DNA of 49,308 nt, from IMG/VR virus record IMGVR_UViG_3300031753_000010, positions 1 through 49,308 of that record, one strand, 5' to 3'. A program made the translations under genes and the position numbers. Positions 20,161 through 41,346 of the stretch are shown one piece after another (position 1 is the first letter of the stretch; the number at the start of each line of letters is the position of its first letter). Under the pieces are notes generated by a model that searched no databases, was not told the origin of the DNA, and was given only the letters and a program-made list of their open reading frames with translations. The DNA comes from a virus.

Positions 20161-21159
20161 ATGGCACCCGGATCTGGCACTGGCTTCCAATCGTTCGTCA
20201 ACAACGAACTTCCGCCGGGCGTCGCTGGCGACTTTGCGGGGGCGAATATCCGCGCGAACGTGCTCGCGAGCGCGTGGGGCTTCGTCGCCGGCCCGAGCGG
20301 CGTGCTCGTCGGACTCGGCGCATGGGCTAACCCGGCAACGGGGCTGGTCACGAACTACTTCCAGCCGAATTCATTCCCCGGCTTCGTTCATCGCGAGGGC
20401 CAAGCGCTCATCACGCAGTACCTCGGCGTTGCCTCGATGCTGATCCAACCTGCGGATGCCGTGACGCTCTTCGATCAGGGCGACTTCTGGGGCATTTTCT
20501 CCGCCGGAGCGACGGCGGGCCTCAAGGTGTATTTCGATCCCGTTACCGGCGGGCTCACCGCGGATGTGACGGGCAACACCGTGACGGCTTCTGCGAGCAC
20601 CGGCAGCACGATCAGCTCGAATGTGCTGACGACAACCGATGCGGATGTGACGGGCACGATCGCCGCCGGGCAGATCGTCACCGGCGCCGGCATTCCGCCG
20701 GGCACCTACATCCTGTCGGCGAACAGCACGGGCTCGGGCACCCATCTGTGGAACCTCGCCAATGTCGACGGCACGGCGATCCCCAACATCGGCTCCGCCG
20801 AGGCGACGAACTTCTACGGCGTGCAGGAAAGCAACTGGTCGGTCGCAAGCCCCGTGCAGGCCGACTGCGCCATCACCAGCGCCACGCTGGCGCTGCCCGC
20901 TGCCGGCGCCGCTTTCGGCGTCCTCACCGTGAGCACGATCGGCTCAGGCTCGCTCGCCCCCGGGCAGTTCCTCAGCTCCACCGGCTCGGTGCCCGTGCCA
21001 GCGTCGGCGAACCTGCAGATCATTCAGCAGCTCACCGGCACGGCGGGCGGCACCGGCACGTACCTGACCAACAACACGGACTTCCACGTTTCGAGCGGGC
21101 AGGCGTTTGTCGCAACGCAGGGCAAGCTCGGCAAGATCACGAGTTGGACGAGTAACTGA
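20161..21159 (+). CDS. Capsid cement/decoration protein with repeated beta domain (332 aa)
   Basis: Residues 1-130 resemble phage cement proteins: GTGFQSFVNNELPPGVAGDF, GLGAWANPATGLVTNYF, then GFVHREGQALITQYLGVASM. A similar block is found in the next-but-one gene at 22311. The rest carries two copies of a beta-rich domain with the pattern G-x-I-xx-GQIVTGAGIPPGTYIL (about residues 135-190) and LAPGQFLSSTGSVPVPASAN...LTGTAGGTGTYL (about residues 240-310). The same kind of domain occurs in the tail sheath and baseplate J proteins. An AGGAGAG site precedes the ATG. It lies between the protease and the capsid. Confidence 0.7.
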   Translation: MAPGSGTGFQSFVNNELPPGVAGDFAGANIRANVLASAWGFVAGPSGVLVGLGAWANPATGLVTNYFQPNSFPGFVHREGQALITQYLGVASMLIQPADAVTLFDQGDFWGIFSAGATAGLKVYFDPVTGGLTADVTGNTVTASASTGSTISSNVLTTTDADVTGTIAAGQIVTGAGIPPGTYILSANSTGSGTHLWNLANVDGTAIPNIGSAEATNFYGVQESNWSVASPVQADCAITSATLALPAAGAAFGVLTVSTIGSGSLAPGQFLSSTGSVPVPASANLQIIQQLTGTAGGTGTYLTNNTDFHVSSGQAFVATQGKLGKITSWTSN

Positions 21160-25074: not shown

Positions 25075-25598
25075 GCGTCACGCCGACGCTGCAAGCTCTC
25101 TACGGCGCGCTCGTGCCGTTCATCATCGGCGTTACCGGCCTCTCGGGGGCGCAGGTGATTCAGGGCGTGCAGAACCGCGCGCCGATGCCCTCGCCCTCAT
25201 CCGCCGGCTTTATCTTGGTGCAGGCGATCAATCGCACGCGGCTGCGGACGAATCTGCACAACTACTCACTGGCGCCGAGCATCGAAGCGCAGCTCGAAGA
25301 GGGCGTCGAGCTGACGGTGCAAATCGATTGTTACGGCACCTCAGCATGTGACTGGGCAGACATGCTCTCTGCAACTCTGCGCGACGAATACGGCTGCACG
25401 GCGCTAGCGCCGACGCTCTCGCCGCTCTACGCCGATGAAGCGCGGATGATCCCGCTCGTCGACGGCGAGGATCAGTACGAAGAGCGGTGGATGCTCACCG
25501 CGGCGTTCCAATTCAACCCGGTCACGACCATCCCGCAGCAGTACGCGGACGTGCTCGACCTCACGCTCGTCAACGTTGAAAAGGCGTACCCCGCATGA
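25062..25598 (+). CDS. Phage neck/tail terminator-like protein (178 aa)
   Basis: The opening VTPTLQALYGALVPFIIGVTGLSGAQVIQGVQNRAPMP, followed by the LVQAINRTRLRTN and VELTVQIDCYGTSACDWAD parts, fits neck/tail terminator proteins. These cap the tail tube and join it to the head. It precedes the sheath gene with an ATGA overlap, as in other contractile phages. Confidence 0.75.
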   Translation: MPGLSVTPTLQALYGALVPFIIGVTGLSGAQVIQGVQNRAPMPSPSSAGFILVQAINRTRLRTNLHNYSLAPSIEAQLEEGVELTVQIDCYGTSACDWADMLSATLRDEYGCTALAPTLSPLYADEARMIPLVDGEDQYEERWMLTAAFQFNPVTTIPQQYADVLDLTLVNVEKAYPA

Positions 25599-27352
25599 AT
25601 CCTTCCATCCCGGCAAATCAATTCGTCAACGTCATCCCGAGCGTGCTGGCTGCAGGCGCAGCGGATCTCGGCATGAACGCCGTATTTGTCGACAACTCGG
25701 GCGATGACTCGATCCCGGTAGGCACGGTGCAGGCGTTCGGCAACGCGCAGTCGGTCGCCGAGTGGTACGGGCCGACCTCTGTGCAGGCCGCGCTCGCCGC
25801 GCTCTACTTCGCCGGCTACAACGGAGCGACCTCGCTCCCCGCGCTGCTCTACTTCACGCAGTACAACGACAGCGCAGTCGGCGCCTACCTGCGCGGCGGC
25901 GCGCTCACGGGCGTTACGCTCACAGAGCTGCAACTGCTCTCGGGCGAGCTGACGATCAACATCGACGGCCGCATTGTTAGCGCTACGGGCATCGACCTCT
26001 CGGGCGCGACGAGCTTCAGCAACGCCGCGGCGATCATTCAGGGCAGCTCGGGCAGCGGCCTGCAGGTGACGGGCGGAATCTGGACCGGCACCGCGACGAC
26101 GAATGGGACGACGACCGTCAACATCGTCTCGACCGGCTCCGGCGCGCTGCACGTCGGCGATCAGATCGTCGCCGCGCACGCCGATATCACAACCCCGATC
26201 GTGAGCTTCGGCACTTACACCGTGCTCGCCGGCACCGGAACGGTACACATCGGCTCGGCCGCAACCGGCAGCAACGTCGCCGAAGCGGGCACCGTCACGA
26301 GCGCGGCGACGTGTGAGTACGACTCACAGCTCAACGCCTTCGTGATCGAGAGCGCGACCACGGGGGCGACGAGCACGATCGGCTACCCGGACACCACTTC
26401 GCTCTCGACGGGCCTCTACCTCACCGCGGCGAAGGGCGCTGTGCTCTCCCAGGGCGCTGCGGCGGCAACGCCGGCAAGCGTCATGGATGCAGTCGTCGCC
26501 GACACGCAGGACTGGGCGACCTTCATGACGGTAGTCGATCCTGACAGCGGCGCGGTGGGCGGCCCGATCAAGCTCGCATTCTCGACGTGGAACGCCGCAC
26601 AGAACGCAGCGTATGCCTACGTCGCGTATGACTCTGATCCAACGCCGGCGACAGAGCTGAACGACTCGGCGTGCTACGGCGCGCTGGTCGCTGCGCTCGA
26701 AGGCACGATCCCAATTTGGAGCGCGACCCAAGGGGCGAGTATCGCCGCTTTTATCTGCGGGCTCACGGCCTCGATCAACTGGAATCGCACCGGCGGCCGC
26801 ACCACCTATGCGTACCGCTCAAGCCCCGCGCTCGCGCCGGATGTGAATAGCCTCGATGTGTATCTCAACCTCAAGGGCAACGGCTACAACTCTTACTGCG
26901 ATGTCGCAACGCGCACCGCGGCATTCCAGTGGTTCCAACCGGGGCTCATCACGAGCGACTGGGACTGGATCGACCCGTATGTAAATCAAATCTATTGGAA
27001 TGCGCGCTTTCAGAGCGACTTCGCCGCGCTGCTCACCAACGTGCCGGACGTGCCGTATACGCAGGCGGGATACAACATGATCCGCGCCGCGCTCGCTCCT
27101 GACATTCAGGCGATGGGGGCTTTCGGCGCATGGAAGCCCGGCGTGCAGCTCTCAGGCGCTCAGGCCGTCGCGGTGAATAGCGCGGCGGGGCTCATAATCG
27201 CGCCGATCCTGCAATCGCAGGGCTGGTATCTGCAGATCACCGATCCGGGGCCGACGGTGCGCGCTGCGCGCGGCTCGCCGATCTGCACCTTCTGGTACAC
27301 CGACGGCGGCTCGGTGCAGCAAATCATCATGGCTTCGATCGACATCGAGTAA
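25595..27352 (+). CDS. Contractile tail sheath protein, DUF3383 type (585 aa)
   Basis: The N-terminal 140 residues (FVNVIPSVLAAGAADL, VFVDNSG, YGPTSVQAALAALYFAGYN) and the C-terminal part after residue 250 (SVMDAVVADTQDWATFMTV, then YNSYCDVATRTAAFQWFQPG and SDFAALLTNVPDVPYT) fit DUF3383 sheath proteins. Between about residues 150 and 240 lies an inserted Gly/Thr-rich beta domain (SGALHVGDQIVAAHADITTPI... pattern), like those in the cement and J proteins. The sheath contracts to drive the tube through the cell envelope, and this gene marks the phage as a myovirus. Confidence 0.85.
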   Translation: MNPSIPANQFVNVIPSVLAAGAADLGMNAVFVDNSGDDSIPVGTVQAFGNAQSVAEWYGPTSVQAALAALYFAGYNGATSLPALLYFTQYNDSAVGAYLRGGALTGVTLTELQLLSGELTINIDGRIVSATGIDLSGATSFSNAAAIIQGSSGSGLQVTGGIWTGTATTNGTTTVNIVSTGSGALHVGDQIVAAHADITTPIVSFGTYTVLAGTGTVHIGSAATGSNVAEAGTVTSAATCEYDSQLNAFVIESATTGATSTIGYPDTTSLSTGLYLTAAKGAVLSQGAAAATPASVMDAVVADTQDWATFMTVVDPDSGAVGGPIKLAFSTWNAAQNAAYAYVAYDSDPTPATELNDSACYGALVAALEGTIPIWSATQGASIAAFICGLTASINWNRTGGRTTYAYRSSPALAPDVNSLDVYLNLKGNGYNSYCDVATRTAAFQWFQPGLITSDWDWIDPYVNQIYWNARFQSDFAALLTNVPDVPYTQAGYNMIRAALAPDIQAMGAFGAWKPGVQLSGAQAVAVNSAAGLIIAPILQSQGWYLQITDPGPTVRAARGSPICTFWYTDGGSVQQIIMASIDIE

Positions 27353-32771: not shown

Positions 32772-34229
32772 ATGACTACCAACGTCCCGCAAATCCAATG
32801 GACCGCCACCGGCATCGTGGTGCCCTCAGAGGCGGCGGTGCTCGCCGGTGTGCAAGAGGACTTTAACGCCGCTTTCGGCGGCAACTTAAACCCGGCGCTT
32901 AACACGCCGCAGGGCCAGCTCTGCACATCGCTCGCCGCGGTGATCTCCAACTGCTATGCGCTCTTTACGCAGCTCGTGAACGGCGTCGACCCGGATCTCA
33001 ACAGCGGATTTATGCAGGACGTGATCGGGCGCATCTATTTCCTCAACCGCATGGGCGGTACGCCCACCGTCGTGAGCTGCACCTGCGTAGGACTTGCGGG
33101 AGCGAGCATCCCGACGGGAGACCCCACGCACCCGCAGGCGCAGGACACGGCCGGCAATCTCTATTACTGCGTGCAGGGCGCGGTGATTCCCGTCGGCGGC
33201 TCGATCACGCTCTCATTCGCCAACGTCGTCGACGGCCCCGTCCCGTGCCCGGCCAGCACGCTCACGCAAATCTATCAGGCGGTGCCGGGATGGGATTCGA
33301 TCAGCAACCCCGGCGATGGCGTCGCCGGCACCAACATCGAGACGGCTGAAGCGTTCGAATTCCGCCGCGAGAATTCGGTTGCAGCCAACGCGCACGGCAG
33401 CGCAGACGCTATCTATGGGGCGGTGATCGATCTCACGGGTGTCACCGATGCCTATGTGTATGAGAACGTGACCGATGATCCGATCCTGGTCGGCTCGACT
33501 CTCTACACGCTTCTGCCGCACTCGGTCTACGTCGGCGTGATCGGCGGCGTCCCGCAGGACATCGCGAATGCGATTTGGACGAAGAAAGACCTCGGCTGCA
33601 ACATGAACGGCAACACCACCGAGACGGTGGTGGATACGAATTACTCCTTCCCGCAGCCGAGCTATACGATCACCTTCAACAACTGCGCCGAGAATCCAGT
33701 CTCTTTCAGCCTCACCGTCAACATCGTCAATAGCTCCGCGCTGCCGAGCACGATCGTCGCTGACGTCACGGCGGCGTGCTTCGCTCAGTTCAACGGCACG
33801 AACAACAGCGGGCAGCGCGTGCGCATCGGCTCGCTCTTTCTCGCAGCGCAATTCTACGGGCCGGTGGCGAACTGCGAGGGGCCGTCGATCCCGGTGCAGG
33901 TGCTCTCGATCTATATCGGCTCGGCCTTCTCCGGCCACGGCACGCTGGTGAGCGGTACGCACGTGCTGACAGTCACCGGCTATACCTCCGGTGCGCTCAC
34001 TCCCGGCACCGAGCTGACCGATGCGACGAGTCAGATCCCGGCCGGCACGATCGTCGTCGAGCAGTTGACGGGCACGCCCGGTCAGGTCGGCACGTATCTC
34101 ATGAGCAAGGCGGCGCTCTCCACCGTCAGCTCGCCAGAGGTAATTACGGGCACGGCGACGGGCACCGCCGCCCAGGTCGGCATCGATCAGGCGCCCGTAT
34201 TGCACGCCGTCACGGTGAATCTGATCTAA
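32772..34229 (+). CDS. Baseplate J-like protein with an extra beta domain (485 aa)
   Basis: The body fits baseplate J/gp47-like proteins: MTTNVPQIQWTATGIVVPSEAAVL, a LNPALNTPQGQL segment, GWDSISNPGDGVAGTNIETAEAFEFRREN, DAYVYENVTDDP and LLPHSVYVGVIGG. Around residues 400-460 a Gly/Thr-rich domain (GYTSGALTPGTELTDATSQ... LTGTPGQVGTYLM) is inserted, of the kind seen in the cement and sheath proteins, before the C-terminal DQAPVLHAVTVNL strand. Confidence 0.85.
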   Translation: MTTNVPQIQWTATGIVVPSEAAVLAGVQEDFNAAFGGNLNPALNTPQGQLCTSLAAVISNCYALFTQLVNGVDPDLNSGFMQDVIGRIYFLNRMGGTPTVVSCTCVGLAGASIPTGDPTHPQAQDTAGNLYYCVQGAVIPVGGSITLSFANVVDGPVPCPASTLTQIYQAVPGWDSISNPGDGVAGTNIETAEAFEFRRENSVAANAHGSADAIYGAVIDLTGVTDAYVYENVTDDPILVGSTLYTLLPHSVYVGVIGGVPQDIANAIWTKKDLGCNMNGNTTETVVDTNYSFPQPSYTITFNNCAENPVSFSLTVNIVNSSALPSTIVADVTAACFAQFNGTNNSGQRVRIGSLFLAAQFYGPVANCEGPSIPVQVLSIYIGSAFSGHGTLVSGTHVLTVTGYTSGALTPGTELTDATSQIPAGTIVVEQLTGTPGQVGTYLMSKAALSTVSSPEVITGTATGTAAQVGIDQAPVLHAVTVNLI

Positions 34230-34238
34230 CACGCCGCC

Positions 34239-36524
34239 ATGCCGACTTGGACTTATCAGGCTCAACTCGGCACCGCCTTCGGCGGCGGCTACGACGTAAA
34301 GAGCGCGGGCGGCACAACACTTGCTGCGCACTTCGGCATCGTCTATCGAAGCACCGACGGCGGCGTGACGTGGGTAACGGGCTCAAGTTTCGGCGGCATC
34401 GCTGACAACTTCGCGATCCTCGGCGGCGGCAAGTGGGCGATTACTAATAACGATGGCGTCAGCTTTATCGATGTTTCGACCGATGACGGCATCACATGGG
34501 TTAGCAGGGGCGCCGGAGTCGGCTATGCGATAGGGCCGTGTGCCGGGGACGGTGCCGGCCGCGGCATTTTTGTGAGCGCCACCGTTGGAGCGAACGGCGC
34601 GTGGACGACCGATGGCGGCACGACGTTCACCACTTCGACGTCATGGCCGTTCGCCCAACCGCTCTTTTCTGGCTGCCTGTTGTGGGATGGCTCGCACTTC
34701 ATCGCGGTTGTCAAAGCGAACGCCAACAGTGCGAACGGCGATATCTACACCGCGCCGAGCGGCTTCTCACAAGGCGCCGGCCCCGTGTGGACGCATGTCG
34801 GCAGCTTCACGAATTACTTGTGCTTTCAGGGCACCGCTGCCTCGTCCGCCGCGCTGAGCTACGACCCGAGTGTTGGGTATGTTGCGATGAGCAACAGTAA
34901 CCCGAGCCTCGGTAGTGGCGACCCTGGAATCATGTTTGCGTCGACTGTGGCGGGGCTGCTCACCGCTACAGCCGTCATACCTCCGCCGTGGGTCGGTGCA
35001 GGTATGCTTGGCAGTGCGACAGCGCGCGCCGTTCTCGCGACTGTCAACAACACCGTTATCGCCGCGCTGAATAGCCCCACGCCGCCGACGGGGGTCGACA
35101 CCGAAGACGGCGGCGTGACGTGGACGACGGATGACTTTTCTTTCCCGAGCGGTGGCTTTCATTATGCGACAGCGATCTGCTATGACTCGGTAAGCGGTCA
35201 GGCGATTGCGCTCAGCGCGACCGGCGCGATCAGCACGCTCTTTATCGCAGCGGTCGTGCCGAATGTTGTCGGCGACACGCTCACGGTCGGCGAAGCGGCG
35301 ATCGTCGCTGCCGGGCTCACCGTCGGCACGGTCTCGAGCACGCCGAGCGGGACGATCCCCGCCGGCATCATTATCAGCACCTCGCCGGTCGCCGGCACCG
35401 TTCTCTCGCCCGGCGCAGCGGTCAACATTCTGCAGTCCTCCGGGCCGCAGGTGCCGAACTGCATCGGCGACACCCAGGCCGGCGCGCTCGCCGCAATCAC
35501 AGCCGCCGGCCTCTCGCTCGGCCCGATCACCTATGAGTACAGCGGCACGGTGGCGGTCGGCATCGTCTTCGGTCAAGAGCCCGTCGCCGGCTCAAGCGCC
35601 GCGATCGGCTCGCCCGTAAGCCTCGATATCTCACTCGGCCCTAACACCGTTGCCGTGCCGAACGTCGTAGGACTTACCGAGGGTGCAGCGAGCGGCGTGC
35701 TGTTAGCCGCCGGCTTCATCGTCGGCACGATCACCGCGGTCACGGACTCCACGCAGCCTGTCGGCTTCGTTGCCACTCAGAGCCCGGTCGGCGGCTCGCT
35801 CGCCTTGCGCGGCTCTGCCGTTGATCTCGGCGTGTCGTTCGTCGTGCCGGAATTTGATGTCGATGCGACCGTGATCTCGCAGTACGCGAACAGCCCAACA
35901 CTCATCACGCTGGTCGAGAACTTCGCCGCGTACTTCGACCCGGCTGTGAACATTCAGCAGTTTTACCTCACGGTGTGGAATATCGACACGGCGAGCGGCT
36001 TCGGCCTCGACATATGGGGGCTGATCCTCGGCGTGAGTCGCATCATCCCAATCTCCGGCGGCTCGGGCGCCTTCGGCTTCGACAACGACGATGTGCCGCC
36101 CGACTGGGAGAATTTCGGCAACGAAAACAACTCCACCGTCGGCGGCCCGTTCTATACCGGCGCGCTCTCGACCGGTTCCTACCGGCTCGATGACGGCCCG
36201 TATCGCGTGCTGCTCTTGACAAAGGCGCTTGCGAATATCTGCGCGACGACGGCGCAGGCGCTCAACGCGCTGATTCAGAATCTCTTCCCCGGCCGCGGCC
36301 GCTGCTACACGCAGGATCTCGGCGGGATGGCGATGAGCTACGTGTTCAACTTCTCGCTCTCGACGATCGAGTACGCGATCCTCGCCTACAGCGGCGTGAT
36401 CGCTCACCCGGCGGGCGTGAAGGTCAACATTAGCGTGGTGCCGGCCGGCGCGTTCTTCGGCTTCGAGGAGGCCGGCAGCAGCGCGCGGCCATTCGACTTC
36501 GGCGTGTTCTACAACGGCGGGTAA
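34239..36524 (+). CDS. Baseplate protein: Asp-box propeller + three PASTA repeats + DUF2612 (761 aa)
   Basis: Residues 1-330 carry Asp-box patterns of a sialidase-like beta-propeller (YRSTDGGVTWV, STDDGITWV, WTTDGGTTF, EDGGVTWTTD). From about 339 to 535 there are three PASTA repeats (VPNVVGDTLTVGEAAIVAAG; VPNCIGDTQAGALAAITAAG; VPNVVGLTEGAASGVLLAAG). From 536 to the end the sequence fits DUF2612 baseplate proteins (YANSPTLITLVENFAAYFDP, VWNIDTASGFGLDIWGLILG, FFGFEEAGSSARPFDFGVFY). DUF2612 alone is normally a small protein, so the N-terminal two-thirds is an addition. PASTA repeats bind peptidoglycan stem or muropeptides in kinases and penicillin-binding proteins; here they may bind the cell wall during penetration. 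Confidence 0.8.
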   Translation: MPTWTYQAQLGTAFGGGYDVKSAGGTTLAAHFGIVYRSTDGGVTWVTGSSFGGIADNFAILGGGKWAITNNDGVSFIDVSTDDGITWVSRGAGVGYAIGPCAGDGAGRGIFVSATVGANGAWTTDGGTTFTTSTSWPFAQPLFSGCLLWDGSHFIAVVKANANSANGDIYTAPSGFSQGAGPVWTHVGSFTNYLCFQGTAASSAALSYDPSVGYVAMSNSNPSLGSGDPGIMFASTVAGLLTATAVIPPPWVGAGMLGSATARAVLATVNNTVIAALNSPTPPTGVDTEDGGVTWTTDDFSFPSGGFHYATAICYDSVSGQAIALSATGAISTLFIAAVVPNVVGDTLTVGEAAIVAAGLTVGTVSSTPSGTIPAGIIISTSPVAGTVLSPGAAVNILQSSGPQVPNCIGDTQAGALAAITAAGLSLGPITYEYSGTVAVGIVFGQEPVAGSSAAIGSPVSLDISLGPNTVAVPNVVGLTEGAASGVLLAAGFIVGTITAVTDSTQPVGFVATQSPVGGSLALRGSAVDLGVSFVVPEFDVDATVISQYANSPTLITLVENFAAYFDPAVNIQQFYLTVWNIDTASGFGLDIWGLILGVSRIIPISGGSGAFGFDNDDVPPDWENFGNENNSTVGGPFYTGALSTGSYRLDDGPYRVLLLTKALANICATTAQALNALIQNLFPGRGRCYTQDLGGMAMSYVFNFSLSTIEYAILAYSGVIAHPAGVKVNISVVPAGAFFGFEEAGSSARPFDFGVFYNGG

Positions 36525-36530
36525 AAGGCT

Positions 36531-37817
36531 ATGGGCGTACCAACACCGACATTCATTCCCGAGCCGTTTGCGGATCTCGCAGCCTCGGATCTCGTCAACT
36601 TCCCGATCCCGGATTTGCCGCCGGGCTCGCCGGCGAATGCCGCGAGCTGGTCGCAGGGCTTCCCCTCGATCACGATGCAGCCGGAAGTATCGGGCGGCCT
36701 GCCGCCGCTCGGGCAGGACTTCAACGGCATCCTGCAAACCATCACGCAGGCGATCTGCGCGCTGCAGGCCGGGCAGCCGTACGAATTCAATTCCTCATAC
36801 TCGACCGCGATCGGCGGCTACGATAAGGGCGCGCTGCTCGGCATGGGCGACGGCACGGGGCTGTGGGTCAACGCGCTGACGGGCAATGAAACCAACCCCG
36901 ATGATGACGCGCACGCGGTGAACTGGGTGCCCGGCATCTCGATCGGCATCGCCGCCGTTGCGAGCCTGACGGGCGGCACCGTCACCGCTCCGCCGAGCGT
37001 CTATCGCCGCTACATCATCACGCTCGCCGGCACGCTCAGCTCGAATTTAAACTATGTGCTGCCAGCGAACGCCTCGCAGCAATGGCTGATCGTCAACAAC
37101 ACCACCGGCGCCTATACGACGACGGTGAAGACGCCGAGCGGCACCGGCGTCGCCATCCCGCAGGGCGGCCCGTCATCGCCGATCGGCGTGTGGTGCGACG
37201 GCTCGAATCTCAACCCGACGGTGGCGCCGCTCTCCGTGCCGATCGCGCAGGCGGCGACGCCGCTCACGCTCGCACAGCGCAACTCTGCCGGCGCGCTCTT
37301 TGCGACCTATTTCAATCAGTCGAGCTCGCCGACTGAGAATCCCGCGATCGGATCAGTCGCCGTCCAAAACACGGCGAATGACGGCTACTACCGCTTCGCT
37401 TCGCTCACGTTTTTCAAACAGACGATCTTCGCCTCACCCGCGCTCACCGGAACGCCAACGGCACCGACCGCCAGCGTCGGCGATGCGTCGACGAAGCTCG
37501 CGACTACGGCGTTCGTCAACCCCGGCGCGTCGCTCATTCAGAACGGATATCAGAAGTTCCCGAGCGGGCTCATCATCCAATGGGGTTACACGCAAGCGAA
37601 CGGTACGACGCCGCAGTTGGTGCATGTCACCTTCCCGATCGCTTTTCCGCACGCAGCGTTCATCGGCCTCGCGGTGACGAAGCGCTCGACCTCGGGTGCG
37701 GCCGGCACTGGGCAGGTAAGCAGCCTGACGACCTCCGGCATGAATGTGGTGTACGACTCACTCGACGGCTTGAACAACGTGACGAATGGCGGCTACTGGA
37801 TCGCCATCGGCAACTGA
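36531..37817 (+). CDS. Tail fibre protein with gp53-like C-terminal domain (428 aa)
   Basis: N-terminal ~120 residues carry a baseplate-attachment block (FPSITMQPEVSGGLPPLGQDFNGI, AGQPYEFNSSYSTAIGGYDKG, WVNALTGNETNPDDD), shared with the next gene. The middle is beta-rich (VSVYRR... not listed in full), and the C-terminus (NGYQKFPSGLIIQWGYTQ, VTFPIAFPHAAF, then GGYWIAIGN) fits the gp53-like fibre tip domain, which is likely to bind the receptor. Starts at ATG 36531, six bases after the DUF2612 gene. Confidence 0.8.
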   Translation: MGVPTPTFIPEPFADLAASDLVNFPIPDLPPGSPANAASWSQGFPSITMQPEVSGGLPPLGQDFNGILQTITQAICALQAGQPYEFNSSYSTAIGGYDKGALLGMGDGTGLWVNALTGNETNPDDDAHAVNWVPGISIGIAAVASLTGGTVTAPPSVYRRYIITLAGTLSSNLNYVLPANASQQWLIVNNTTGAYTTTVKTPSGTGVAIPQGGPSSPIGVWCDGSNLNPTVAPLSVPIAQAATPLTLAQRNSAGALFATYFNQSSSPTENPAIGSVAVQNTANDGYYRFASLTFFKQTIFASPALTGTPTAPTASVGDASTKLATTAFVNPGASLIQNGYQKFPSGLIIQWGYTQANGTTPQLVHVTFPIAFPHAAFIGLAVTKRSTSGAAGTGQVSSLTTSGMNVVYDSLDGLNNVTNGGYWIAIGN

Positions 37818-37833
37818 GAGAGGCGCAACGATT

Positions 37834-38592
37834 ATGAGTGGTCAACCGACTCCGCCCCGACTGCCCGAAGCGTTCGCGATCGACGCGCCGGACTCCTCGC
37901 CCGCCTCACCGATTGCGGGCGGGCGAACCAACCCGTTCCCGACCGCCTCACAGATCGGCATCACCAACGGCGCGGCCTCACTTCACGATGGCTTCCCGCC
38001 GCTCACGATGACGAGCGAGCTGGCGGGCGGCATCCCGCCGTTCGGCGTCGATGCGAACGGCATCCTGTACCTGCTCTCGGCGCACGTCGCTGCAATCGCT
38101 GCGGGGCAGCCATACCTCTTCGATGCGACGCTCGCAGCGGACATGGGCGGCTATAAGATCGGCGCGGTGCTCGTGCAGGAGGCCGATCCGAACGCGTTCT
38201 GGATCAACACGCTCGACGGCAATACGTCCGACCCTGACACCGCATCCCCGCTCGGCTCTAACAACTGGTACAGCACGAAGCCGCTGCAGAAGTCGGTCAC
38301 CGCTGGCGGCAATAACATCGCGCTGCCGGGCGCGAGCGATTACGTGTGGGACGTTGACGCCACCTCGGGAGCGATCACGATCACCGGCTTTGTCTCACAG
38401 CGCGACGGGCAGCGGTTGACGATCCGCAAGATCGATTCGAGCGGCAACGCTGTCACGCTCTCATCGCTCAGCGGCTCATCATCCGCTGCCAATCAGTTGC
38501 AGATCGTCAGCCCGAGCATCGCGCTTCCGTTGCAATATATGGCGGTGACGATCCTCTACAACTCGACTGTCGGGAAATGGATACAAGTATGA
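37834..38592 (+). CDS. Second tail fibre-like protein, paralogue at the N-terminus (252 aa)
   Basis: Start ATG 37834. Its N-terminal block repeats that of the previous fibre: FPPLTMTSELAGGIPPFGVDANGILY, AGQPYLFDATLAADMGGYKIG, FWINTLDGNTSDPDT. The remainder (KSVTAGGNNIALPGASDYVWDVD, then TGFVSQRDGQRLTIRKID) is a different beta-rich end without the gp53-like tip. So the phage has two fibres with the same attachment part and different ends. Confidence 0.75.
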   Translation: MSGQPTPPRLPEAFAIDAPDSSPASPIAGGRTNPFPTASQIGITNGAASLHDGFPPLTMTSELAGGIPPFGVDANGILYLLSAHVAAIAAGQPYLFDATLAADMGGYKIGAVLVQEADPNAFWINTLDGNTSDPDTASPLGSNNWYSTKPLQKSVTAGGNNIALPGASDYVWDVDATSGAITITGFVSQRDGQRLTIRKIDSSGNAVTLSSLSGSSSAANQLQIVSPSIALPLQYMAVTILYNSTVGKWIQV

Positions 38593-40194: not shown

Positions 40195-40449
40195 ATGCCT
40201 ACCGACGTCAGTCACGCGCACCAGAAAGCTCAGATCGAGCGGCTCATCAAAACCGCTGATAAGGTGAATCGCGAGATTCAGATCGTCGTCCGTGCCTCGG
40301 AAGTTGCAGCGAACCTCGGCTCGTTTCACTCGCAGCGCCTTCTCGCCCGCGCGCGCGACCATTTGGAGGACGCGCTGTTGGAGATTCGCGAAGCGCAGCG
40401 CGTGCTGCCCGAGACCGAGCAGACGCCGGGCGAGGACGACGATGACTGA
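40195..40449 (+). CDS. Small helical protein ahead of the endolysin (84 aa)
   Basis: A fully helical protein (HAHQKAQIERLIKTADKVNREIQIVV, then RLLARARDHLEDALLEIREAQRVL) with an acidic end (GEDDDD). No domain was recognised. It overlaps the endolysin start by eight bases, so it belongs to the lysis cassette by position. Confidence 0.55.
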   Translation: MPTDVSHAHQKAQIERLIKTADKVNREIQIVVRASEVAANLGSFHSQRLLARARDHLEDALLEIREAQRVLPETEQTPGEDDDD

Positions 40450-40996
40450 CACGCTGCAGATCACGGCGCAGCAGTTGCTCGCGATCATGCCGGATGCGGG
40501 GCCGCGCGCCGCGCAGTTCGCACAGCCGCTCACGGATGCAATGGCGCAGTACGACATCAATACACCGGAGCGCGCCGCGGCGTTTCTCGCGACGATCGCT
40601 GAGGAGTCAAACGAGCTGCGCGAGCTGCGCGAAGAGGCTTCCGGCATTGCGTATGAGCCGCCCTCTGCCGCTGCGCGCGTGCTCGGCAATTCACAGCCCG
40701 GCGACGGCGAGCGGTTCAAAGGCCGCGGCCTTGGGCAAGCGACGGGGCGCTGGCAGTACATGGCGCTGCAGAAAGCGCTCAAGCTGCCGCTGGTCGCGCA
40801 GCCGGAGCTGCTAGAGCAACTCGTGCCCGCTTGCGAATCAGCGGCATGGATCTGGAGCGAAGAGAAAAAGCTAAACGCCGTCGCCGATGCGCAGAAATTC
40901 GGCGAGTGCTGCTACCGCTGGAACGGCGGCTATAACGGCCTCGACTTGCGCATCAAGTACTGGCTGCGCGCACGGCGGGCACTTGGGCTCTCGTGA
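40442..40996 (+). CDS. GH19-type endolysin (184 aa)
   Basis: Fits glycoside hydrolase family 19 (chitinase-like) endolysins: AFLATIAEESNELRELREEASGIAYE (catalytic glutamate in the AEES position, near residue 44), LGNSQPGDGERFKGRGLGQATGRWQY (the conserved PGDGxRxxGRGxxQxTGRxxY), and CCYRWNGGYNGLDLRIKYW near the C-terminus. It cuts peptidoglycan glycan strands. No signal peptide is present, so a holin is needed. Confidence 0.85.
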   Translation: MTDTLQITAQQLLAIMPDAGPRAAQFAQPLTDAMAQYDINTPERAAAFLATIAEESNELRELREEASGIAYEPPSAAARVLGNSQPGDGERFKGRGLGQATGRWQYMALQKALKLPLVAQPELLEQLVPACESAAWIWSEEKKLNAVADAQKFGECCYRWNGGYNGLDLRIKYWLRARRALGLS

Positions 40997-41346
40997 GCGA
41001 GGACGACCATGCCGATACGATCGTCGGTCGAGTCCTCAAGCTACGCGCGCCCGCGTGGTACTGGGCGCGGGAGAATTTCTCACTGCCGGCGCTACTGACG
41101 ATCGCCGGAGTGATCGCCGCAGCGGGCGGCTACATTATCACGCTGCGCACGCGCGTCGTGGTGCTCGAAACCGAGGTGGTGCATATCACGCAGATCGTCC
41201 CCGATAGCAGCATGCTCGCAGCGCTCAAGCAGCAAGTGGCGGAGGACGAAGCGCGGCTCACACGATTAGAGGCAAATTGGGACTATGCCCGTGAGCATGC
41301 CGGCGAGCATGTCCCTATGCCGGTGCGCCCACGGCGCAACAAGTGA
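40993..41346 (+). CDS. Membrane protein with coiled coil, possible i-spanin or holin (117 aa)
   Basis: GTG at 40993 (GTGA overlap with the endolysin). One transmembrane stretch near residues 31-50 (LPALLTIAGVIAAAGGYIITL) is followed by a coiled coil (TRVVVLETEVVHI, LAALKQQVAEDEARLTRLEANW) and a basic tail. The topology, a single membrane helix then a periplasmic coiled coil, resembles an inner-membrane spanin; no lipoprotein partner was found. Confidence 0.55.
   Translation: MSEDDHADTIVGRVLKLRAPAWYWARENFSLPALLTIAGVIAAAGGYIITLRTRVVVLETEVVHITQIVPDSSMLAALKQQVAEDEARLTRLEANWDYAREHAGEHVPMPVRPRRNK

Follow-up and report, generated by a model that had tools for sequence, protein, structure and literature searches.

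The IMG/VR virus record IMGVR_UViG_3300031753_000010, analyzed over its whole length of 49,308 bases (the window), encodes a 761-residue protein that is probably a wedge subunit (gp7/gp17-type) in the small baseplate of a contractile tail, with its N terminus extended into a host-recognition arm. The open reading frame on the plus strand runs from ATG to TAA over 761 codons without internal stops and joins a propeller-like head, three PASTA repeats, and a DUF2612 domain, a combination that an earlier note had read from the sequence and that Pfam, Asp-box motifs, and AlphaFold2 now confirm. The following features were assigned to this gene and its neighbors; L-numbers here and below are our handles for the loci compared.

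34239..36524, plus strand: gene of the 761-residue wedge-arm protein, head plus three PASTA repeats plus DUF2612 (Pfam)
34239..35252, plus strand: head, Asp-box beta-propeller-like, residues 1-338, four Asp boxes (motifs, model, homologous heads in L020, L125, and L120)
35253..35435, plus strand: PASTA repeat 1 (Pfam 42.9 bits, AlphaFold2)
35448..35633, plus strand: PASTA repeat 2 (Pfam 41.0 bits, AlphaFold2)
35649..35837, plus strand: PASTA repeat 3 (Pfam 43.2 bits, AlphaFold2)
35865..36428, plus strand: DUF2612 domain, equivalent of the wedge proteins XM1 gp17 and T4 gp7 (Pfam, phmmer)
36429..36521, plus strand: C-terminal tail of the wedge protein (alignment); the matching XM1 region binds tail spikes (PMC10457771)
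32381..32770, plus strand: neighboring gp25-like sheath initiator/wedge subunit (phrog_120)
32773..34229, plus strand: neighboring baseplate J protein, T4 gp6 equivalent and probable core-bundle partner (Pfam)
36531..37817, plus strand: neighboring tail fibre with Gp53-like C-terminal domain (Pfam)
37786..38592, plus strand: neighboring second tail fibre-type protein (phrog_12796)

Pfam assigned DUF2612 (PF11041) to residues 543-730 with an E-value of 3.7e-49 and 167.6 bits, above the curated cut-off of 23.5 bits and covering profile positions 3-180 of 181. PASTA (PF03793) matched in three stretches (E = 1.5e-30), likewise above the curated cut-off, and each repeat passed singly with 41.0-43.2 bits as compared to 23.2. 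A search of the whole record revealed no PASTA repeat beyond these three. GC3 amounted to 0.73 in the head, 0.83 in the PASTA array, and 0.88 in the DUF2612 part; it is thus high in all three, consistent with one coding frame.

The C-terminal part showed homology to gp17 of Vibrio phage XM1 (phmmer, E = 1.2e-6). In each XM1 wedge, a single gp17 is combined with two copies of gp16. Residues 1-48 of gp17 contribute to the core bundle, and the tail spikes are held by two other regions of gp17; the T4 counterpart of (gp16)2-gp17 is (gp6)2-gp7 (PMC10457771). Furthermore, the gene order gp25 - J - DUF2612 - fibre was present and was found identically in L006 and L008. The DUF2612 match, the gp17 homology, and the gene order together bear out the assignment as a baseplate protein. 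Homology to free-standing DUF2612 relatives starts at about position 35859, matching the natural N terminus of those relatives; the extra 540 residues are therefore an N-terminal addition, and their role as an extended arm is probable. Apart from this gene, similar beta-rich segments were noticed by eye in a head-region protein (20161-21159), the tail sheath (25595-27352), and the J protein (32773-34229); they share the pattern G-x-L-x-x-G-x-x-I...G-T-Y, as though a single small beta domain had entered several virion proteins. Window positions 40445-41346 encode an endolysin (phrog_181) and, after it, a small protein that weakly matches Rz-like spanins (E = 0.046), an arrangement that would suit a Gram-negative host.

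Relatives were collected by profile scans of IMG/VR and GTDB genomes, supplemented by a few named phages; scans of IMG/VR and GTDB with the full-length protein alone had returned no close relative, and a six-sequence alignment of PASTA arrays was too divergent for scanning. The collection comprised 146 distinct DUF2612 open reading frames from a sampling that favors query-like sequences, so that totals are counts and not frequencies. The search for similar fusions yielded 28 distinct PASTA-DUF2612 proteins from more than 20 metagenomes, the 761-residue protein included; the fusion is not unique to the record analyzed here. One PASTA copy was present in five carriers, two in nine, three in 12, and four in two, and the array was located immediately N-terminal to DUF2612, after any head, in 28/28. 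Of 50 whole virus records taken from the first scan, nine contained PASTA, always in the DUF2612 frame. Heads of the carriers were Laminin_G_3 or its kin (LamG/ConA lectin-like), Asp-box propellers, or others without Pfam match; six carriers, L010, L016, L142, and L148 among them, had no recognizable head.

The earlier note had considered that the fusion might be an assembly chimera of separate genes, a caveat for which we found no supporting point. With 28 distinct fusions in more than 20 metagenomes, some of them recovered twice in different assemblies (L022/L119, 99% identical; L093/L094; L125/L126), an assembly joint can be dismissed with practical certainty.

PASTA repeats were said to be rare in virions, which holds for named phages: among 50,697 phage records, the PASTA array had matches in eight, and in no case was the match a DUF2612 protein. 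The strongest of these matches, MT836719.1 (L005), was rejected as a virion protein because it is a PASTA Ser/Thr kinase; this record, deposited as a bacteriophage, also encodes a LysM protein and has the appearance of a bacterial contig. Likewise rejected as a PASTA fusion was L166 (Achromobacter), which matched from residue 137, yet has no PASTA in its open reading frame. Additional observations concern five DUF2612 proteins (L046, L052, L055, L064, L172) carrying another N-terminal extension without PASTA and with a head type in common, noticed in passing as a second kind of wedge-fused arm, and phage proteins of about 180 residues (L211-L214), unrelated to DUF2612, that end in a single PASTA repeat.

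Heads and repeats proved to be exchangeable. Wedge parts 60-73% identical to that of the 761-residue protein were found with 0, 1, 2, or 3 PASTA repeats and with differing heads, namely in L009 (73%, LamG head, two repeats), L125 (73%, propeller, two repeats), L010 (71%, headless, one repeat), L120 (68%, propeller, one repeat), L020 (60%, propeller, three repeats), and the armless L011 and L012 (67% and 63%). In pairs with 91-93% identical wedge parts the heads were only 20-35% identical; apparently, the heads change fastest. On a quick DUF2612 tree of 104 rows, on which gain and loss are not separable, PASTA presence requires at least eight changes, and strongly supported branches alone force four changes. 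Among the PASTA carriers on this tree, repeat number requires nine changes and head type 10, the latter being an approximate count since the LamG label of L040 stems from single-linkage clustering via the N-terminal domain of L009 and Pfam reports no LamG in L040. Furthermore, the PASTA-profile scan revealed the same kind of cassette on an anchor other than DUF2612: L205 (propeller-like head) and L206/L207 (LamG head) have one PASTA repeat each and a common C-terminal anchor, preceded by a further beta domain. L205 weakly matched the podophage GP4 fiber-tail adaptor gp77 (E = 0.13), and the gene neighborhood of L206 looks podophage-like.

The head contains four Asp boxes (S-x-D-x-G-x-T-W) at residues 38, 80, 123, and 288, as compared to 0.003 expected from composition shuffles; none of 20,000 shuffles reached four. 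The Pfam BNR/Asp-box score of 14.6 bits remained under the cut-off of 27. A separate prediction for the head, with four homologous heads included, was all-beta and of moderate confidence (pLDDT 63, pTM 0.71); its best structural matches were DAIP and YCF48 propellers, with a best E-value of 2.6e-9 for DAIP and a TM-score of up to 0.69 by target length for YCF48. The model also matched propellers of sortilin and GH74, as well as numerous uncharacterized phage proteins. These matches make it likely, at the level of the model, that the head is a beta-propeller. The earlier description as a sialidase-like propeller thus stands only insofar as motifs and fold matches indicate an Asp-box propeller, a type also found in sialidases; sialidase activity is not claimed. 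The GH74 enzymes among the matches would be compatible with a glycan-degrading enzyme that is displayed on the PASTA stalk and clears capsule or O-antigen. However, YCF48 and DAIP are non-enzymes, a catalytic motif was not identified in the head, and LamG-like folds serve as alternative heads in relatives; an enzymatic head is therefore improbable.

AlphaFold2 was run on the full 761-residue protein with nine relatives. The PASTA array was modeled confidently (pLDDT 72-91, residues 341-530), each repeat showing the canonical helix and three strands; structure outside the array was poorly modeled (mean pLDDT 49.9 overall). In Foldseek, the best PDB match of the PASTA model was the PASTA region of S. 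aureus PrkC (3PY9, E = 3.6e-16), and 3OUV was matched with a TM-score of 0.90 by target length. The segments thus adopt the PASTA fold, as had been presumed. Besides PrkC of S. aureus, hits included the PASTA stretch of PknB from M. tuberculosis; PBP2x and baseplate chains from cyanophage Pam3 and phage XM1 were weaker hits.

By composition counts, the PASTA array of the 761-residue protein contains no Lys and one Arg. Among 67 phage repeats from 28 proteins, 46 have no Lys or Arg, 19 have one, and two have two, giving an average of 0.6% Lys plus Arg as compared to 11% in the PASTA kinase of L005, the repeats of which carry 5-8 basic residues each. Other virion proteins of the same phage, the J protein left out of the comparison, contain 2-8% basic residues, and the array lies lower still. 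A survey of the Paraburkholderia class, with 19/369 genomes positive, revealed two sorts of PASTA repeats: one rich in basic residues (4-10), found chiefly in proteins with an apparent membrane segment, and one with mainly 0-1, found in large proteins alongside other repeat domains. Judged by their sequences, the phage repeats belong with the low-basic sort. In the 12 loci fetched, none of the Paraburkholderia-class PASTA repeats was fused to DUF2612.

These figures bear on the proposal, made in the earlier note, that the PASTA repeats act as a sensor or anchor by binding to peptidoglycan or muropeptides once the head has met surface glycans. The PASTA repeats of PknB and PrkC, the nearest solved relatives of the phage array, do bind muropeptides, but this property is not intrinsic to the PASTA fold: binding by PrkC depends on Arg500 (PMC3601408), and a Ser-Lys pair (Lys557) is among the residues used by PknB, with a second pair located in a linker (PMC6428115). 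By composition, 46/67 phage repeats lack any Lys or Arg, the kind of residue implicated in known binding, and 19 have a single one. Moreover, the hosts that could be named, those of PASTA-less DUF2612 relatives in GTDB genomes, were almost all Gram-negative Pseudomonadota with peptidoglycan beneath the outer membrane. Neutral PASTA arrays also adjoin other repeat domains in large Paraburkholderia-class proteins, and PASTA was found in methanogen control genomes. Methanogens are archaea and have no murein. Peptidoglycan sensing or anchoring is thus unsupported and appears very improbable, and the label PASTA should not be equated with a peptidoglycan sensor. The array is probably a length-variable spacer, with which its freely varying copy number fits.

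We infer the following mode of action for the wedge-anchored recognition arm. The C-terminal DUF2612 domain would anchor each arm in the wedge; by analogy with XM1, each wedge would hold one copy and each virion up to six. The PASTA repeats would form a neutral rod, their number setting the reach of the head; the N-terminal propeller, swapped for LamG-like or other heads in relatives, would face outward and touch the cell surface, and head binding would pull on the wedge and so help to trigger sheath contraction. Surface contact by the head, already proposed earlier, is kept as the best reading in view of head exchange. At least two separate fibre-type proteins are also encoded; hence, the arm may be auxiliary. 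In free-standing DUF2612 proteins, single changes alter the host range, and GP075m, a variant of the phage K8 protein GP075, has gained binding to the LPS core (PMC9887876); changes in DUF2612 genes also arise in resistance-overcoming phages or upon directed evolution (PMC9796965, PMC12300175).

The strongest rival is an arm that attaches, with its head and PASTA rod, to fibres or neighboring wedges, for example stowing fibres, without host contact. It would agree with XM1 gp17 and K8 GP075, which contact spikes or fibres, and with arms that lack a head; indeed, the six headless carriers are left unexplained by a pure head-on-stalk model. However, the heads are the fastest-changing parts and are exchanged for unrelated folds, as is typical of host-facing parts, and an unrelated anchor also carries head-PASTA cassettes. 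We consider docking rather unlikely and favor the recognition arm.

Literature on PASTA in phage tails yielded nothing relevant, and a recurrent, modular, wedge-anchored arm is apparently undescribed in the searchable literature. The receptor-binding proteins of phages are, as a rule, separate trimers attached via their N termini. If the reading as a recognition arm is true, the arm is part of the wedge ring and held C-terminally, so that a single polypeptide would serve as both sensor and trigger. Chances seem about even that such C-terminally anchored, N-terminally tipped arms in the wedge ring constitute a new class of host-recognition organ, with 0-4 PASTA repeats as an evolvable ruler and a plug-in tip common to contractile-tailed and podophage-like viruses. 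The natural series of 0 to 4 PASTA repeats and several heads on similar anchors offers a test of the effects of arm length and tip on adsorption and contraction.

Among known systems, gp17 of Vibrio phage XM1 (PDB 7KH1) shares the homologous wedge domain, the position after J, and the expected core-bundle start; however, it is armless with 242 residues, whereas the 761-residue protein has about 540 residues before the wedge domain. GP075 of Pseudomonas phage K8 belongs to the same DUF2612 family and its variants change receptor use (PMC9887876), but neither PASTA nor a head is described for it. The PASTA arrays of PrkC/PknB kinases resemble the phage array in fold and tandem arrangement; the phage protein differs in having no kinase or membrane segment and nearly no basic residues, and in being located on a baseplate anchor. 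The neutral Paraburkholderia-class arrays (L216, L217, L220, L226, L227) likewise have 0-1 Lys/Arg per repeat and lie between other domains, but they occur in bacterial and not in virion proteins. Finally, the podophage-like proteins L205-L207 share the head types, propeller-like or LamG, with a single PASTA repeat behind the head, and differ by their unrelated C-terminal anchor behind the further beta domain.
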